NCBI RefSeq assembly: GCF_900107195.1
Contig: NZ_FNPB01000010.1
Coordinates: 1 to 64,000, forward strand
DNA: 64,000 nucleotides
Source of the DNA: Halobellus clavatus
Lineage (GTDB): Archaea; Halobacteriota; Halobacteria; Halobacteriales; Haloferacaceae
Direction: 5' to 3'
The position numbers were made by a program, and so were the translations under genes. Shown here in pieces: positions 8,208 to 46,007 of this stretch; the stretch's first letter is position 1, and every line of letters begins with the position of its first letter. The notes beneath the pieces are model-generated. The model searched no databases. It worked only from the letters and a program-made list of their open reading frames with translations, and had not been told where the DNA came from.

Positions 8208-8262
8208 CCGCCAGACGGCGTATGGCCAACCGTGACCCAACTGTGAACCGACCGTCGTGTCG

Positions 8263-9873
8263 ATGTCGTCCGCAGCAGCGATCGGGCAACGACCGCGGGC
8301 AGTTGTGGCGTCCGCGCCGGAACCTGAGGCCGAGATGAGTTTTCGGAATCGGCTGGAACCGGAGGCCCTGCTCGTCGCGATTTCCGGCTTCGGCATCACG
8401 CGGTTGTTCGTCGCGGAGACGCTTCGCATCGACGCGGCTCTCCCGTTTTTGATCGCGGGACTGCTCCCGCTCGTCGTGGGACTCGGCCTGTGTCTCTACG
8501 GCGTCGCCCTCGCCGTCGGGCCATTCGCTCCGGCGTACGTACGCACCGTCGCACGCTGGCACCTCCTCGGCGTCGCGACGATGGCGGCCATCTTCGGGAT
8601 CACGGCTGTCGATCAACTGCTTCGAACCGGGGTCGTCACTGTCGGTCAGGACGCGCCGCTCCTCTTCGCAAACGTGCTTCTCGGGGGCGCGGTCGGCGGG
8701 ACCCTCACCGGCATCCAGTCGGGACGATCCCTCCGGCAGCAGCGGGAGATCCGACGGTCGGCGAACCGCGCGTTGCTCGTCAACCGACTGCTGCAACACG
8801 AAGTCATCAACTCGATCACCATCATCGGCGGGCACGCCGACGTGCTGCAGAACACCGACGGCGACCGCCCGGAGTCGACAGCGGCGATCAGGCGGGCCGT
8901 CGATCGGATTCGTGAGACGGTCGACGAAGTCGGCATCGTCGCACGAGATGCCGAGGGCTCGGACCGAAGCGACCTCGAACAGATCATCAGGACCGAAGTG
9001 GCGGCGCTCCGGGAGGAACACGACGTCGACCCCGACATCGTCATCGACGCGGAGGACACGACCACCGTCGGCGACGATCGGCTCTCGCTCGTCGTTCGGG
9101 AGTTGCTGACGAACGCCGTTACACACGGCGCGTCGCCGACCGTCACGGTTCGCGAGCGGGCCAACGCGCTGGAACTCACGGTTGGCAACGACGGGCCGGG
9201 GCTCCCACCGGGACAGCGGACGTTGCTCGAGTCGGGAGAGTTCCCCGAGTTCGACGACCCCTCGGCGGGGTTCGGTCTCCAGATCATCCGCTTGCTCGTG
9301 ACGCAGTTCGGCGGCGACATCCGAGTGGCGTCGGGAGACGACGGGACCGATCGCACGCGGATCACCGTCGCGCTGCCGCGTACCGAACGAGAGCAGTTGC
9401 GTCCGGAGACGATCGGACTCGGGATCTCGACTGTCATCGGAGCCATCGTGGCCGGCGTCCTCGGCGGCATCGCGATGGGGGCGTACTTTCAGTCCGCGAC
9501 GGGGGTGCTGCCGGTCATCGGGTCGCTGTACGGGATCGAGAGTCCACTGGTGGGATGGATCACCCACCTCTTTCACAGCGCCATCTTCGGGCTGTTTTTC
9601 GCCGCCGGGACTGCGACGCCTGCAATCAGACGGTTCGCGTCCGGACCACTCAGGTCCGCAGCGCTGGGTGTCCTCTGGGGTGTGGTACTCTGGTTCGTCG
9701 CCGCAGGAGTTCTGATGCCGCTCTGGCTCGGCGTGCTCGGGATTCCGGCCCCCGTCCCGAACCTCTCAGTCAACGGGTTCGTCGCCCACGTACTCTGGGG
9801 AGCGGTGATGGGGTTCTCCTATCGCGTGGTGAGTGCGGCCAGCCCCGGACGACTCGTGCCGCAGAAGACGTGA
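8263..9873 (+). CDS. Membrane histidine kinase with an additional C-terminal membrane domain
   Basis: About 536 residues. Four hydrophobic helices near the N-terminus lead to a dimerisation helix with a likely phospho-acceptor in LLQHEVINSI, then an HATPase domain with N box ELLTNAVTHG, G1 NDGPGLP and G2 GFGLQIIRLL. The usual kinase ends there, but this one continues for about 150 residues with four more predicted helices and the motif VPNLSVNGFVAHVLWG. No receiver or response regulator is adjacent. Possible starts are GTG 8257, ATG 8263 and ATG 8335; 8263 is used because of the upstream TATA box, but 8335 is just before the first helix and is also plausible. Confidence 0.88.
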   Translation: MSSAAAIGQRPRAVVASAPEPEAEMSFRNRLEPEALLVAISGFGITRLFVAETLRIDAALPFLIAGLLPLVVGLGLCLYGVALAVGPFAPAYVRTVARWHLLGVATMAAIFGITAVDQLLRTGVVTVGQDAPLLFANVLLGGAVGGTLTGIQSGRSLRQQREIRRSANRALLVNRLLQHEVINSITIIGGHADVLQNTDGDRPESTAAIRRAVDRIRETVDEVGIVARDAEGSDRSDLEQIIRTEVAALREEHDVDPDIVIDAEDTTTVGDDRLSLVVRELLTNAVTHGASPTVTVRERANALELTVGNDGPGLPPGQRTLLESGEFPEFDDPSAGFGLQIIRLLVTQFGGDIRVASGDDGTDRTRITVALPRTEREQLRPETIGLGISTVIGAIVAGVLGGIAMGAYFQSATGVLPVIGSLYGIESPLVGWITHLFHSAIFGLFFAAGTATPAIRRFASGPLRSAALGVLWGVVLWFVAAGVLMPLWLGVLGIPAPVPNLSVNGFVAHVLWGAVMGFSYRVVSAASPGRLVPQKT

Positions 9874-10086: not shown

Positions 10087-10791
10087 TCAGACGCTCGCGA
10101 CGATCGAGACGTAGCTCACCTGTCCGGCCTCGACCGCGGCTTCGAGTTCCTCGATGGCGTCCAGCGCGCGCTGCCCCCGCTCGCCCAGCAGGCCGAGGAT
10201 TCCCTCGTAGTCGACGCGGTCAGTCACCCGGTCGCGCAGTGCGAGGAGTTCGTCGTGGTGGTCGTCCACTGTCTCGACGTCGAACCCGGCGTCGCGGAGT
10301 CGGGCCAGGAATCGGTCGCGACTCCGCGTCCCGGTCAGACAGAGGGCCTCGGCCATCCGGTCGGGGATCGCTGGCCCCTCGCCGTCGACCACGACGTCCG
10401 AGAGGGCGAGGCGACCGCCGGAGTCCAGCACGCGGTGAGCCTCCTCGAGCGCCGCCGGCAGCTCAGTGAGACAGAGGACACACTCCGCGAGGAGGACGTC
10501 CACCGACTCATCCGCGACGGGGAGCGCCGTGGCGTCGCCCCCGATCGTTCGGTCAGCACTCCGCGAGGGGTCGGGGTCGACGCCGACCGCGGTAGCCCCG
10601 CGCTGGCGTGCGACCGTTAGCGCGTGACCGGCACCGCAGCCGACGTCCAGCAGGCGTGTCTCGGAATCGACGTGGGCTCGATCGAGCAACTGCGCCGTCG
10701 CCTCGATGCCGCCGGGATGCAGGGGGCCATCGAGGACGGTGTCGAGTGTACCCCACGGGTTCGCGAGCGCGGCGTCGAGCAGTCCGTCCAT
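10087..10791 (-). CDS. Class I SAM-dependent methyltransferase partnered with a radical SAM enzyme
   Basis: A 234-residue Rossmann-fold methyltransferase. Motif I is LLDVGCGAGHALTVA, the acidic residue after strand 2 is in VGVDPD, and motif IV reads LLAECVLCL with a cysteine in place of the more usual polar residue. Its ATG overlaps the stop of the radical SAM gene by one base (TGATG), so the two are almost certainly translated together and act in one pathway. It resembles small-molecule methyltransferases of the UbiE/ArsM kind, but the substrate is unknown. Confidence 0.87.
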   Translation of the reverse strand: MDGLLDAALANPWGTLDTVLDGPLHPGGIEATAQLLDRAHVDSETRLLDVGCGAGHALTVARQRGATAVGVDPDPSRSADRTIGGDATALPVADESVDVLLAECVLCLTELPAALEEAHRVLDSGGRLALSDVVVDGEGPAIPDRMAEALCLTGTRSRDRFLARLRDAGFDVETVDDHHDELLALRDRVTDRVDYEGILGLLGERGQRALDAIEELEAAVEAGQVSYVSIVASV

Positions 10792-12278
10792 CAGTCACAC
10801 CCGTCGCCGCACCCGTCGGTGGGACACCCGCCGTCGGGAGCCGTCTCCCCGCCCCGATAGGCCGCAGCGTCGCCACGCGCTGTGAGCGAGTCGTCGACGG
10901 CGTCCTTTCCGCCCCAGTCGTTGCGATTCCGGAGCGCGTACACCCCGTCCTCGGTCGTCATATTGTGTCCGCAGAAGGGGACTAGCTCCCCATCGGTGGT
11001 GGGAACGGAGAGACAACAGTTGCTCAGTCGGTCGAGGTCGGCCGCGTCCGCGTCCATAAATCCGGTAAACGACACGGGAACGACCTCGTCGAACAGTCCC
11101 TCGACGCCGCCGGGCACGTCGACGCCACAGCACCCGGCGGTCTTGCACGCCCACTCCTCTCCCGCGGCGGTGCCGGCGAGTAACTCCATATAATCGCCTT
11201 CGTCGACCATCCCCGACAGGGCGTCCCAGAGGTGGTCGTCGACGTACTGCGTGAGTGGCACGAACTCGTCGACGTCGGCGGACGTCTCCGCACAGCCACA
11301 GGTAGCCGAGTCCTCGGCAGCGTCGGCAGTCCCTGTCGGGTCCGTCTCGCGCGGAACGAACGCGGTTCCGATCTGACAGTACGCCGAACAACAGGGGGCA
11401 GGTAACAGGTCCCGGGGATCGAGCGTCTCGATCTGTGTGGCCAGCAGTCGGGTCGCCTCGTCGAGGGCGAATCGGCCCTCGTCCTGGTCGTAGCGGCCGA
11501 AGTGCGCCACCGGCTGGAAGTTGACAGAGCGAACGACGTCGCGGTTCTCCAGCGCGAATCTGACGATGTCGCCCATCTCGTGGTCGTTGACCCCGGGGAC
11601 GACCGTCGGGACCAACACCACCGGTAGGTCGGCGGCGCGACAGGCGTCGATGGCGGCGTGCTTCTCCTCGACGAGGTCGACCTCGCGAATCTGCTCGTAC
11701 GTCTCACTCGTCAGGCCGTCGAACTGCAGGTAGATCGCCGTCACGCCGGCGTCCGCGAGTCGTTCGGCGTAGCCGTCCGCTGTCGCCAACCGGATCCCGT
11801 TGGTGTTCACTTCGACGTGATCGATGCCTTTGCTCTGAGCGCGCTCGACGAGTTCGGGGAGGTCGTCTCTGACGGTGGGTTCGCCACCGGAGAACTGAAT
11901 CGGGCGACCGCCGGCAGCGGCCACCGTCTCGAGGAGCGCGTCGATGTCCTCGTCGGACCGGTGCGCGCCGCCGGGACCGGAACTGGCGAAGCAGTACGAG
12001 CACGAGAGGTTACAATCCTCGGTCACCTCGACGACGGCCAGGCACGCGTGGTCGGGATCGACGGTCAGGTCACCGTCGTACTCCGGGTTCGGCCCGAACT
12101 CCGCGGCCCACTCCCAGTGATCCAGTGACCCCCAGACCTGTCGGGTGGCCGTCCCGTGCTCGGGGCACTCGCGGGTGAGAAAGACCCCGTCGCCGCGCGT
12201 CTCGTACTGGCCGGGGACCGCCTCGAGACAGTCCGGGCAGAGACTCGTCGTCGTCGCAAGCGTGTCACTCTCTTGCAC
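10791..12278 (-). CDS. Radical SAM enzyme resembling tetraether lipid synthase (Tes/MJ0619 family)
   Basis: With the GTG at 12278 the protein has 495 residues. The N-terminus has a zinc-ribbon or rubredoxin-like set (C14, C17, C38 in CPDC...ECPEHG), the radical SAM cluster is C89-x3-C93-x2-C96, and SGGEPTVRDDLPEL follows. The C-terminal third has many cysteines (PAPCCSAYC, CGC, ACKTAGCCG, NCC, FCGHN), consistent with auxiliary iron-sulfur clusters. This layout matches the archaeal Tes family, which couples lipid chains; whether this member does so is unproven, and haloarchaea are usually regarded as making diether lipids. A frame open to 12380 exists, but a TATA box about 25 nt before 12278 argues for the shorter, leaderless form. 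Confidence 0.82.
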   Translation of the reverse strand: MQESDTLATTTSLCPDCLEAVPGQYETRGDGVFLTRECPEHGTATRQVWGSLDHWEWAAEFGPNPEYDGDLTVDPDHACLAVVEVTEDCNLSCSYCFASSGPGGAHRSDEDIDALLETVAAAGGRPIQFSGGEPTVRDDLPELVERAQSKGIDHVEVNTNGIRLATADGYAERLADAGVTAIYLQFDGLTSETYEQIREVDLVEEKHAAIDACRAADLPVVLVPTVVPGVNDHEMGDIVRFALENRDVVRSVNFQPVAHFGRYDQDEGRFALDEATRLLATQIETLDPRDLLPAPCCSAYCQIGTAFVPRETDPTGTADAAEDSATCGCAETSADVDEFVPLTQYVDDHLWDALSGMVDEGDYMELLAGTAAGEEWACKTAGCCGVDVPGGVEGLFDEVVPVSFTGFMDADAADLDRLSNCCLSVPTTDGELVPFCGHNMTTEDGVYALRNRNDWGGKDAVDDSLTARGDAAAYRGGETAPDGGCPTDGCGDGCD

Positions 12279-12411: not shown

Positions 12412-13158
12412 ATGCCCCGCACAGAAGCGCGCTCGCAGCCATCTGCGCCACCAGATGAGTCGCCGACGGCGCTCGCTCGGGGGCTGCTCGTCGCCTGCAA
12501 GCGCGGCGACGCGACCGACCGATATCGGAGTGCGCTCGCGGCGCTCACCGAGGACGAACTCGGCCGGGTCAGGACCGACCGACAGACCGCGCTGGCGTTC
12601 TGGCTCAACTGTTACAACGCCGGCACGCAACTCTTGCTGGCGGAACGGCCCGACCGCTACGAGAGTCCGTTCCGGTTCGTTCGGTTCTTCCACGCGCCGG
12701 CCCTAACCGTCGGGGGGTCCTCGTTGCCGCTGGATCGTATCGAGAACGGGATTCTCCGCGGGGGTCGATCGAAGTACGGCCTGGGCTACCTCCCGAAACT
12801 GTACGTCACTTCCGTCGAGCGGCGGTATCGGCTGGACGAGTGCGACCCCCGGATCCACTTCGCGCTGAACTGTGGCGCGGAGAGTTGCCCGGCCATCCGC
12901 GAATACGAGCCGGATCGAGTCGACGAACAACTCGACCGGGCGACTCGCCACTACCTCGATTCGGAGGTGACGTACGATCCGGACTCGGGTGTCGTCTCCG
13001 TCCCTCGCGTGTTCCTGTGGTTCCGCGGCGACTTCGGTGGACGGTCGGGAATCCGGTCGTTCCTCCGCTCGTACGGGGCGCTTCCGGACGGCGCTCGACC
13101 GAAGATCCGCTATCAGTCGTGGGACTGGTCGAAAGCGGCCGGCGCGTACGCCGAGTAG
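12412..13158 (+). CDS. DUF547 domain protein
   Basis: A 248-residue protein matching the DUF547 pattern: AFWLNCYNA near residue 62, a central NCGAESCPAI with paired cysteines, and a C-terminal VFLWFRGDFGG block. No signal peptide is visible, so it should be cytoplasmic. The biochemical role of DUF547 is unknown to me. It faces the radical SAM gene across a divergent promoter region and is followed 41 nt later by a peroxiredoxin-like gene, so the four genes may form a functional module. Confidence 0.85.
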   Translation: MPRTEARSQPSAPPDESPTALARGLLVACKRGDATDRYRSALAALTEDELGRVRTDRQTALAFWLNCYNAGTQLLLAERPDRYESPFRFVRFFHAPALTVGGSSLPLDRIENGILRGGRSKYGLGYLPKLYVTSVERRYRLDECDPRIHFALNCGAESCPAIREYEPDRVDEQLDRATRHYLDSEVTYDPDSGVVSVPRVFLWFRGDFGGRSGIRSFLRSYGALPDGARPKIRYQSWDWSKAAGAYAE

Positions 13159-13199: not shown

Positions 13200-13697
13200 A
13201 TGGCCACGCACGTGCGAGACTTCACGCTCCCGAACGTCTCCGTCGGTCCGGACCCGTTCTCGCTCGCTGGGCTCTCCGACGACGTCTCCTTCGTCGTCCT
13301 CTTCTTTCAGCGGGATCACTACTGTACCAACTGTCGGAAGCAAGTCCAAGCCCTCGCTGCGCGGATCGACGAGTTCAGAGAGCGCGACGCCGAGATCGTC
13401 TCGATCGTTCCGGAACCCGTCGATCGCGTCGAGTCCTGGCAGGAGACGTACGATCTCCCGTACCCGCTGTTGGCCGATCCGCAAGCGGAAGCGGGGGACG
13501 CGTACGACCAGCCCGTCCGGTTCGGGATTCTGGGGAAAGTTTCCGACTTCTTCGGTCGGATGCCGGCGGTCGTCATCGTCGACAGACGCGGGGCCGACCC
13601 CGAGATCGCGTACGTTCACAAGGGATCCTCGACGTTCGACAGGCCCGAGATCGACGACCTGCTCGCGGAACTCGAAGCGCTCCGGACCGCCGAGTGA
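13200..13697 (+). CDS. Peroxiredoxin/redoxin (AhpC-TSA family) with CxxC
   Basis: A 165-residue thioredoxin-fold protein. VVLFFQRDHYCTNCRKQ holds a C42-x-x-C45 pair at the place of the peroxidatic cysteine of AhpC/TSA proteins, and the C-terminal half has the cis-proline strand region around GRMPAVVIVD. It would reduce peroxides or act as a thiol-disulfide partner in the cytoplasm. A longer frame opens at 12840 but overlaps the DUF547 gene; the ATG at 13200 begins recognisable sequence. Confidence 0.85.
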   Translation: MATHVRDFTLPNVSVGPDPFSLAGLSDDVSFVVLFFQRDHYCTNCRKQVQALAARIDEFRERDAEIVSIVPEPVDRVESWQETYDLPYPLLADPQAEAGDAYDQPVRFGILGKVSDFFGRMPAVVIVDRRGADPEIAYVHKGSSTFDRPEIDDLLAELEALRTAE

Positions 13698-43267: not shown

Positions 43268-44494
43268 CTACGACGACCCGTCGACGGCGACCTCGCGGTC
43301 CTCGTTCGGTCCGCCGCTCTCAGATGCGGTGATCCGAACGACCGCGCGGGCGGCGACGAGTGCGATGGCCACCTCCGAGAGGCCGACGACGAGGAACGAC
43401 GTCAGATAGCCCGCGGCCGCCGTGGTGACGCCCCCCAGCAGGAAGCCCGCGAGAAAGCCGAGACTCCCGAAGACATTGAATCCGCCCAGCGCCGCCCCGC
43501 GCGTCTCCGGGGTGGCGACGTCGGTGACGAGCGCCATCGTCGCGGGTGAGACGAGCGCCCCGAGCGCGCCGACAGCGATCATCCCGGCGATGGCGAGCGC
43601 GACGGTCGGCGCGATGCCCACGGCGACGATGCCGAGTCCATAGCAGATGGAGCCGACGACGACCGGGGCCGCTCGGCCGATCCGATCCGAGAGGATTCCC
43701 GCGGGATACTGCAACAGCGCGAACGGGACGAAGAACGCCGCGAGAGCGAGCCCCGCACCCGCCGCGCTCAGTCCGAACGCGTCGCGGAAGTAGTAGACTC
43801 CGACCAGCGCGAAGAACCCCGCAGTCATCCGGTCGATGAACCCAAACGCGTACGGGACGCCGAGTTGCGGCCGGCGTCTGAGCCGCCGGAGCGCGTCGCC
43901 GACGCGGAGGCCCTCGGCACCCGGGAGGTCCTCGGAGATGGTCACGAAAAGCACCGCGACGACGAGGAGCGTCGTTGCGGCCGCGTACAGCGGATAGATA
44001 GGGTCTGCGTCGGCCAGTCGGCCGCCGACGACCGAACCGATCGCGGCCCCCAGTCCGATCGCGATCCCGGCCGCCCCCATGTTCTGGCCGTTGCCGCCGG
44101 CGAGATCCGCGAGCGCGGTGATCGCCAGCGAGAACGCGCCGATCGTCATCGCGCCGCCGAAGAGTCGAATGACGAGCACAGCACTGAACGAGAGCCCCAG
44201 TCCCGGGGCGGCCGCCAGCAGAAGATAACTGGACGCGCCGCCGACGGCACCGGCCGCTGCGAGCGGCGTTCGTCGGCCGAGCGCGTCGCTCGCGGCCCCC
44301 CAGACGCTCGCGAAGATCACGAAGGCGGCGAACTCCGCGACCAAGAACCACATTCCCGCCCGGATCGCCCCGTCGCCGCCCAGCGCCGAGATGATGTCCT
44401 CGACGCCCGGGTACAGAAAGACCTGCGAGACGAGGACGCCCCAGACGGCTACCGCCAGCCGGATCCGGGTTCCACGACGAGTCACAGTCTCCAT
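43268..44494 (-). CDS. Major facilitator superfamily transporter (first)
   Basis: 408 residues with about twelve hydrophobic helices and the motif-A-like loop GAASDALGRRTPLAAAG between helices 2 and 3, plus GILSDRIGRAAPVVVGS in the second half. This two-halved structure is typical of MFS exporters. Substrate unknown. Its 3' end converges on the aldo/keto reductase gene with a 60-bp gap. The ATG at 44494 is the natural start. Confidence 0.92.
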   Translation of the reverse strand: METVTRRGTRIRLAVAVWGVLVSQVFLYPGVEDIISALGGDGAIRAGMWFLVAEFAAFVIFASVWGAASDALGRRTPLAAAGAVGGASSYLLLAAAPGLGLSFSAVLVIRLFGGAMTIGAFSLAITALADLAGGNGQNMGAAGIAIGLGAAIGSVVGGRLADADPIYPLYAAATTLLVVAVLFVTISEDLPGAEGLRVGDALRRLRRRPQLGVPYAFGFIDRMTAGFFALVGVYYFRDAFGLSAAGAGLALAAFFVPFALLQYPAGILSDRIGRAAPVVVGSICYGLGIVAVGIAPTVALAIAGMIAVGALGALVSPATMALVTDVATPETRGAALGGFNVFGSLGFLAGFLLGGVTTAAAGYLTSFLVVGLSEVAIALVAARAVVRITASESGGPNEDREVAVDGSS

Positions 44495-44645
44495 AGCCGG
44501 CCAGAACAGATATTCACGTCGTTTTCCGCTCTCCCCAGTTCGACGCTCCGGGTACCCGGACTCGTCGTCCAGCCGTCATCGCCGGGCGTCCGGCGGTTCA
44601 CCGTCCCAACAGAACCCACTTTGCCGTCAGTCTCCTACGGCGTGT

Positions 44646-45947
44646 ATGGCTGATGGACCCGACGAGTGGACGCGGCGGGCAGCGATGAAGGCCGCCGTCG
44701 CGGCCGGCGGCGCGGCGGCCCTGTCGGCGTGTCTCGATCGGTCCTCGGAGCCGGCCCCGTCGGGCCCGGACGACCCCTCGTCGCTCCCGGCGCGACAGCA
44801 CGCGTGGAACGACCGCGTTCGAACCGACGACTACGGGAACAGGCTCCTGCCCCGACACCAGACGCTCATCTATCTTCGGCTTCCCGGCGAGGGGCCGCCG
44901 GAACCCGCCGCCCGGAGCGCCGTCGAGAGAGCCCTCAGGACGCTCGATCGAGCCTACGAGCGGAGCCACGATGGATTGCTCCACTCACTCGCGTACTCGC
45001 CGCGGTACTTCGATCGCTTCGACGACGCCCTCCCGGCGGATATCGATCTCCCCGAACCGCGCACGCTCTCGCCGTTCGAGACGCCGACGTTCGATCGGCA
45101 GGACGCGCTCTTACATCTCGCGTCTGATCGGCCGGACGTCGTCCTCGCGGCCGAGGAGGCGCTGCGGGGACGCGAATCGACGGTGAACGGTGTCGAGGTC
45201 GAAACCGCCCTGACCGACGCGTTCGTCGTCGCAGACCGCCGAACCGGGTTCGTCGGTGCCGGGCTGCCGGCCGAGAGACAGGACGGGCTCAAGGGGATCC
45301 CGAATTCGAACCCCGTTCCGGAGGCATCCCCGCTGTTTATGGGGTTCAAAGCGGGGTTCAGGAAGAACCAGGCCACCGAGGACACCGTCACCATACCGGA
45401 TGGCCCCTTCGCCGGTGCAACCACGAAACACGTCTCGAACCTCCGGATGCGCCTCGACGACTGGTACGGGGAGCAGTCGTTCGACGAGCGTGTCGCGGAG
45501 ATGTTTTCGCCCGCACACGCTGAACGCGGGGTTGTCGACGGTGTCGGCGAGAACCTCGGCGCGAGCAACGGCATCACGCCGGAGATACTGGATCGCATCC
45601 CCGAAGACGTTCGCGAGCACGCTCGCGTCGGCCACGCGCAGAAGGCGGCACGGGCGAACCGGAGGGACGACGGAACGGTCCGGACCCTCAGACGGCACTT
45701 CGAGTCGACCGACGACAACGAGGCCAGCCTCCACTTCCCGAGCCTCCAGCGGGAGATCTCGACGTTCGAGGAGGTCCGAGCCGCGATGAACGGAACGGAC
45801 CTGACGGAACTCCCCACGATCCGGCAGCGAGCGAACAACGGGATCCTCGAATACGTGTTCGTGAAGCGGCGCGGCAATTTCCTCGTGCCTCCGCGCTCGC
45901 TCCGAGCGCTGCCGACGCCCGCGGGTGACACACCCGGGCTCGACTGA
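44646..45947 (+). CDS. Tat-exported lipoprotein related to Dyp-type peroxidases (DUF7405-like)
   Basis: 433 residues. A twin-arginine pair at residues 10-11 in EWTRRAAMKAAV and a lipobox cysteine at residue 29 predict export and lipid anchoring. The C-terminal segment ARVGHAQKAARANRRDDGT matches the haem-ligand neighbourhood of Dyp peroxidases (a histidine before a K-x-x-R-x-N stretch), but the G-x-x-D-G motif of the distal pocket is not apparent. It may bind haem outside the cell. A longer frame from 44391 is unsupported. Confidence 0.72.
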   Translation: MADGPDEWTRRAAMKAAVAAGGAAALSACLDRSSEPAPSGPDDPSSLPARQHAWNDRVRTDDYGNRLLPRHQTLIYLRLPGEGPPEPAARSAVERALRTLDRAYERSHDGLLHSLAYSPRYFDRFDDALPADIDLPEPRTLSPFETPTFDRQDALLHLASDRPDVVLAAEEALRGRESTVNGVEVETALTDAFVVADRRTGFVGAGLPAERQDGLKGIPNSNPVPEASPLFMGFKAGFRKNQATEDTVTIPDGPFAGATTKHVSNLRMRLDDWYGEQSFDERVAEMFSPAHAERGVVDGVGENLGASNGITPEILDRIPEDVREHARVGHAQKAARANRRDDGTVRTLRRHFESTDDNEASLHFPSLQREISTFEEVRAAMNGTDLTELPTIRQRANNGILEYVFVKRRGNFLVPPRSLRALPTPAGDTPGLD

Positions 45948-46007
45948 GCAGTGTGGGGTGGGCAACAGGGACGGTTCGACGCTCGTCCGAATAGTGGAAC
46001 CCGACCG

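Follow-up and report, generated by a model that had tools for sequence, protein, structure and literature searches.

The Tes/TrsS superfamily of radical SAM enzymes takes its name from two families. TrsS is uncharacterised and sometimes contains selenocysteine. Tes is tetraether synthase; finding it in an organism is taken to mean that the organism can make GDGTs, on which palaeotemperature proxies rest. Tes has two hydrophobic pockets for lipids, and MJ0619 contains three [4Fe-4S] clusters plus one rubredoxin-type metal.

In the Tes protein MJ0619, an N-terminal cluster is held by C73, C77, C80 and a histidine, and there is a C-terminal cluster with a labile Met439; Tyr459 is strictly conserved across 1,000 archaeal homologues, yet is not catalytically essential (Lloyd et al. 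2022, PMC9433317). Among Halobacteria, Zeng et al. 2022 (PMC8941075) counted 20 that carry ‘Tes homologues’ whose function is unclear. Halobellus clavatus and Halorientalis regularis are two that they name, and in the lipid analyses published for those Halobacteria GDGT was not found. There are also precedents for pairing a radical SAM enzyme with a methyltransferase: ArsL with ArsM for arsinothricin, and ArsS with ArsM for arsenosugars (PMC8552651).

The window analysed here is a stretch of 64,000 nucleotides from Halobellus clavatus. It contains a radical SAM gene next to a methyltransferase gene. The features are listed below, with positions in the window.

8257..9873, plus strand: convergent histidine kinase; a small protein encoded next to an actinobacterial radical SAM gene (L118) matches the membrane part at its C-terminus
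10087..10791, minus strand: class I SAM methyltransferase, METHYLTRANSFERASE partner, 234 aa, closest to the DVU_1556 family
10339..10341, minus strand: methyltransferase Cys151, aligned with ArsM Cys224; invariant (alignment)
10480..10482, minus strand: methyltransferase Cys104, aligned with ArsM Cys174; invariant (alignment)
10791..12278, minus strand: radical SAM gene, TrsS-like (non-Tes), 495 aa, GTG start at 12278
10794..10877, minus strand: Cys-rich disordered tail of the radical SAM protein (pLDDT about 40), unconserved in relatives
10971..11081, minus strand: C-terminal cluster region VSFTGFMDAD...NCC...PFC; cysteines kept, Thr at the Met439 position and Val at the Tyr459 position (alignment)
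11376..11402, minus strand: PAPCCSAYC motif (C296, C297, C301), in place of the Tes helical insertion (alignment)
11991..12014, minus strand: radical SAM [4Fe-4S] motif CNLSCSYC, C89-x3-C93-x2-C96 (PF04055), invariant
12045..12101, minus strand: segment of the MJ0619 N-terminal auxiliary [4Fe-4S] cluster (C73, C77, C80, His), ligands gone here (alignment; PMC9433317)
12132..12260, minus strand: rubredoxin-like / zinc-ribbon N-terminal domain, C14x2C17x20C38x2H41 (PF23545, residues 7-49)
12412..13158, plus strand: divergent DUF547 protein (PF04784, 107 bits), a recurrent neighbour in haloarchaea and Thermoplasmatota
13200..13697, plus strand: redoxin/AhpC-TSA protein with a CTNC motif, weakly SelL-related, a recurrent haloarchaeal neighbour

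The radical SAM protein

The open frame proposed by the initial annotation is genuine. Its GTG start agrees with the N-terminus kept in relatives, MxxxxxLAxTTSLCPxCL, and third-position GC is 82%, as measured on a slightly longer open frame. There is no in-frame TGA in this frame. In-frame TGAs in relatives were considered as selenocysteine, and turned out to be ordinary stops of coupled genes, or to be out of frame.

Pfam recognises Radical_SAM (PF04055, 107 bits) and, over residues 7-49, Zn_ribbon_HMPTM (PF23545). The match to the sequence of the MJ0619 crystal structure 7TOL is far beyond chance (E 6e-61). When an AlphaFold model (pLDDT 85, pTM 0.86) was compared with PDB folds, 7TOL and 7TOM came out on top (E 1e-37, TM 0.72). 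Judged by its sequence, the protein is a member of the Tes/TrsS radical SAM superfamily.

A layout like that of Tes had been noted before, and part of this stands. Fold, domain order, rubredoxin domain and radical SAM motif are all alike, and the rubredoxin-type motif C14-x2-C17-x20-C38-x2-H41 has the same spacing as C9-x2-C12-x20-C33-x2-H36 in MJ0619. The SAM-contact Gln and Arg (equivalents of Q268 and R275) are present, as are the cysteines of the C-terminal cluster. The rest does not survive a comparison of active sites with MJ0619. In the alignment, the N-terminal ligands C73/C77/C80/His are missing from this protein and from every haloarchaeal row of its type (the query type), and Met439 has become Thr and Tyr459 has become Val in all haloarchaeal relatives as well. 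Where Tes has a helical insertion following P-x-P, this protein has PCCSxYC; the full PAPCCSAYC motif is common to the methyltransferase-linked relatives in Thermoplasmatota and actinobacteria.

Bacterial TrsS-type relatives mostly retain both the N-terminal cluster and Met439, so losing them is a haloarchaeal feature. Tyr459 is generally absent outside Tes. The present protein would thus be predicted to contain two [4Fe-4S] clusters and one rubredoxin-type metal.

The cysteine-rich C-terminus that had been remarked upon also divides in two. Conserved in relatives are C301, C421, C422 and C436. The extreme end (CPTDGCGDGC) is disordered in the model, and is ruled out as a functional element because relatives do not conserve it.

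Two haloarchaeal families

On the Tes profile (NF045702), which has a cut-off of 450 bits, the protein scores 274 bits (244 in the genome search) and does not reach the cut-off. Its best NCBIfam model is TrsS (NF045646), with 339 bits over residues 9-446, below that model's cut-off of 490 bits.

In a tree of 80 rows, Tes sequences make up one clade and haloarchaeal sequences of the query type another, with an SH-aLRT of 100 each. A careful second tree of 40 rows gives 100/100 for both of these clades, and also for a methyltransferase-linked Thermoplasmatota protein as sister to the haloarchaeal query-type clade. An AU test rules out placing the query type together with haloarchaeal Tes (p 0.0005).

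The initial annotation had raised the idea of a coupled lipid, and had itself named a position outside the Tes clade as counting against it. Since the protein does lie outside that clade, and lacks the N-terminal cluster ligands, Met439 and Tyr459 that define Tes, a Tes function is unsupported. Moreover, because a methyltransferase gene always accompanies this separate, uncharacterised branch, the protein probably does not make tetraethers. It very probably belongs to a TrsS-type pair rather than to Tes.

The resemblance to TrsS consists of the best-scoring model, and of an adjoining methyltransferase of the DVU_1556 type, which bacterial TrsS loci have too. An example is a Syntrophorhabdus-like locus (L077), where a full-scoring TrsS (566 bits) lies beside a DVU_1556-family methyltransferase and a DVU_1553 CoA ligase. 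Bacterial TrsS loci are often near molybdenum or tungsten enzymes and a CoA ligase. There are differences too. The haloarchaeal protein stays under the TrsS cut-off and lacks features that bacterial members retain (the N-terminal auxiliary cluster and, mostly, Met439). Its gene has neither a DVU_1553 CoA ligase nor a C-GCAxxG-C-C protein as a neighbour, and the methyltransferase is 3' in haloarchaea, as opposed to 5' in Deltaproteobacteria.

A survey of 391 Halobacteria genomes found the query type in 16, with 57-81% identity over the compared stretches. Genuine Tes is present in 4 (L021, L022, L023 and L024, in genomes G224, G052, G359 and G303), scoring 450-686 bits on the Tes model. None of the 391 genomes has both. 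The N-terminal cluster, Met439 and Tyr459 are retained in three of the four haloarchaeal Tes proteins; in the one from G303, several ligand positions are degenerate. The query type is a second haloarchaeal family beside genuine Tes.

Homology searches merge these families. Halorientalis regularis, among those listed as having Tes homologues, has the query type only (strain TNN28; L058, a contig of 245,031 bases, also G168). Splitting the two families resolves part of the paradox of Tes homologues without GDGTs, and earlier hints of a tetraether gene in some haloarchaea were partly mistaken. The four sampled Halobacteria with true Tes are the haloarchaea worth testing for tetraethers.

Presence of the query type is patchy, being scattered over genera, and haloarchaeal plasmid records yielded 5 copies, the plasmids in question measuring 288-565 kb. 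This patchiness and plasmid location suggest horizontal spread. One Haloarcula halophila plasmid (G367:C2) carries two near-identical copies, at 44470-45960 and 511492-512981 (L006, L025), of which the second is split over two frames near residue 70. In Haloarcula sinaiiensis ATCC 33800 the pair is carried on pHsi540, as genes KDQ40_RS17720 (radical SAM) and KDQ40_RS17715 (methyltransferase).

The methyltransferase and its arsenic-type cysteines

The initial annotation called the methyltransferase fused in the operon. It is in fact a separate gene, whose start overlaps the radical SAM stop by one base (TGATG). The suggestion of another substrate, handled together with this adjacent enzyme, has become well supported. 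Of the haloarchaeal loci scanned, the 21 with sufficient flank all have the methyltransferase directly after the radical SAM gene, a count that leaves out L069, which is cut by a contig end. The same holds for the haloarchaeal plasmid loci L043-L046 and L049. It lies 3' of the radical SAM gene in 19 of 19 actinobacterial loci and 5' of it in Deltaproteobacteria, Dehalococcoidia and Synergistaceae. The pairing is also found in Thermoplasmatota, and so recurs in two domains. Gene calls in unannotated contigs are our own. No methyltransferase was found beside Tes at any Tes locus scanned.

Two loci (L072 and L101) were considered as fusions of the pair, and turned out to hold adjoining genes that are read in separate frames; L088 is the sole true fusion.

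At loci of the Coriobacteriales/Peptococcaceae branch no methyltransferase was found either. Members of the Coriobacteriales/Chloroflexota branch without one (L075, L090, L097) have DUF2064 (glycosyltransferase-like) and ferredoxin-type genes on their flanks, and molybdopterin oxidoreductases are near several of them. This branch probably has a different function.

The best model for the methyltransferase is the DVU_1556 family (NF045667), with which it shares an HPGG motif and a cysteine pair, although at 136 bits it remains under the cut-off of 155. On the ArsM model it scores 70 bits against a cut-off of 263. By profile and by fold, the solved proteins closest to it are RebM/AtmM-like enzymes, generic methyltransferases for small molecules. 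ArsM was ranked lower in these searches, or was not among the top 50. The fold search does not put ArsM first.

In 20 methyltransferase sequences there are 12 invariant residues, mostly glycines and acidic residues of the SAM region, plus Cys104 and Cys151. These two remain invariant down to 23% identity. They match cysteines of true ArsM proteins (the L088 fusion and L114), which map to Cys174 and Cys224 of CmArsM, and the partner thus has equivalents of these two arsenic ligands. Among the alignable other methyltransferases of the host genome, a cysteine at the first (Cys104) position is absent.

Unlike ArsM, the partner is shorter and has no equivalent of Cys72. The CmArsM mutant C72A keeps MMA(III) methylation and loses arsenite methylation (PMC3877260); two cysteines therefore suffice for mono-substituted As(III). 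The radical SAM protein and the methyltransferase form an uncharacterised cross-domain module, whose cysteine signature is specific and testable.

Gene neighbourhoods link the superfamily to arsenic here and there. In two distant relatives, what looks like a genuine ArsM takes the place of the partner. Gagatemarchaeum (L088) has a TrsS-ArsM fusion, scoring 450 and 241 bits. It occupies one frame in a Candidatus Gagatemarchaeum bog metagenome assembly (L088:2893-5001, plus strand), and the ArsM part keeps three As-binding cysteine motifs. In Aromatoleum the radical SAM gene is followed by ArsM (245 bits). Such fusion or adjacency with ArsM did not recur in 429 further genomes from the classes of L088 and L114.

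In a Micromonosporaceae locus (L118:1812-12688), the neighbours of the pair are ArsR/SmtB, an ArsC-like gene, an LPD/MerA-like flavoprotein and ACR3, which exceeds its cut-off with 436 bits. A second radical SAM copy in that genome has no ACR3 nearby. A general arsenic link in actinobacteria is ruled out, as ACR3 is near 1 of 19 loci. The host genome (G000) has no ACR3. The Halorarius copy has an ArsC-like gene immediately 5' of the radical SAM gene.

ArsL+ArsM and ArsS+ArsM resemble the present pair in combining a radical SAM enzyme with an As-type cysteine methyltransferase. They differ in that the radical SAM families are unrelated, that the protein here has a rubredoxin domain and an auxiliary cluster, and that for this locus the arsenic role is putative. 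The 25 best model hits of the radical SAM protein include no ArsL model and not ArsS (TIGR04167) either.

Thiol-redox neighbours are common to haloarchaea and actinobacteria: LPD/MerA-like flavoproteins, DUF3179, and a redoxin or CcdA with a thioredoxin-like protein. Where DUF547 and redoxin genes occur apart from the pair (Halorubrum, Haladaptatus), they have thiol-redox and transport neighbours, and no pathway emerged. Histidine kinases similar to the convergent one in the window are found near other haloarchaeal radical SAM copies. This kinase is a possible regulator of the pair, its membership being uncertain.

Candidate functions

The TrsS-type protein and the methyltransferase are tentatively read as an obligate pair acting on one shared substrate, most likely a thiophilic element such as arsenic; this could well be right, and could as well not be. 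The reading starts from the observed family placement, the absent Tes features, the conserved pairing and the conserved cysteine pair. Given the evidence for and against arsenic, and the recurrent thiol-redox neighbours, a thiophilic element or a thiol is favoured as substrate, with arsenic first and held loosely. A thiophilic element is quite possible; arsenic specifically, taken by itself, would be rather unlikely.

The putative mechanism is as follows. The radical SAM [4Fe-4S] cluster would cleave SAM to give a 5'-deoxyadenosyl radical. The retained cysteines of the C-terminal auxiliary cluster and the PCCxxxC site may bind the substrate or an intermediate, or keep it stable, a part that the C-terminal cluster plays in MJ0619. 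The radical SAM protein would then form a bond to carbon, its type being presumed, and the partner, whose two invariant cysteines match the As-binding pair of ArsM, would methylate the product, presumably in that order. For the likeliest class of substrate, this product would be a mono-substituted R-As(III), needing only two cysteines.

A more far-reaching version is distinctly unlikely. It would be a new route to carbon-metalloid bonds, in which a radical SAM enzyme of the Tes superfamily links As(III), held at PCCxxxC, to a carbon radical, possibly at the end of a lipid or alkyl chain, where Tes attacks. In haloarchaea, Thermoplasmatota and actinobacteria, the two-cysteine methyltransferase would then complete a methylated organoarsenical, which might be an arsenolipid.

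It is a distinct possibility, if a doubtful one, that the pair serves to make or modify a different small organic compound, for instance a thiol, a peptide, a lipid headgroup or a cofactor of the pterin kind, and that the two cysteines of the methyltransferase are engaged in a disulfide or in metal binding instead of handling a metalloid. This would fit a fold and profile nearest to small-molecule methyltransferases, the thiol-redox enzymes next to the pair across domains (redoxin, CcdA with a thioredoxin-like protein, LPD/MerA-like flavoprotein, DUF3179) and the inconsistent presence of ars genes. However, it leaves unexplained why the invariant pair falls exactly on two ArsM ligand positions, and why ArsM is fused or adjacent in two lineages. 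The molybdenum and tungsten enzymes and CoA ligase at bacterial TrsS loci in turn fit arsenic poorly. TrsS-family loci adjoin a molybdopterin aldehyde oxidoreductase (1474 bits, L119), an aldehyde ferredoxin oxidoreductase (L126), DMSO-reductase-family enzymes and MoeA-like genes, all of which would suit an accessory enzyme that modifies the cofactor of a molybdenum or tungsten enzyme. Such a role is very unlikely here, given that the annotation around the haloarchaeal plasmid copies shows no such enzyme, and that the bacterial families most consistently beside molybdoenzymes have no methyltransferase.

Least probable of all is a diverged tetraether or macrocyclic-archaeol synthase, coupling lipid chain ends under some condition. 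The protein does share fold and domain order with 7TOL (TM 0.72), and it retains the rubredoxin domain, the radical SAM cluster, the Q268/R275 equivalents and the C-terminal cluster cysteines. The AU test does not reject a sister-group relation between the query type and Tes as a whole (p 0.46), and MA_1114, a second Tes homologue, yielded just trace macrocyclic archaeol (PMC8941075). Against this, it is outside the Tes clade with 274 of 450 bits, has no N-terminal auxiliary cluster, carries Thr for Met439 and Val for Tyr459, and has lost the helical insertion. Its methyltransferase partner is obligate and absent from Tes loci, and published lipid analyses of H. regularis, a carrier of the query type only, found no GDGT. 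The shared-substrate pair remains the preferred reading.

Elsewhere in the superfamily, plasmids of Persicobacter (L048:5232-5978, plus strand) and Mycobacterium avium (L143:3189-3974, plus strand) carry a prolipoprotein-diacylglyceryl-transferase-like gene beside another branch, hinting at a lipid role for that branch.
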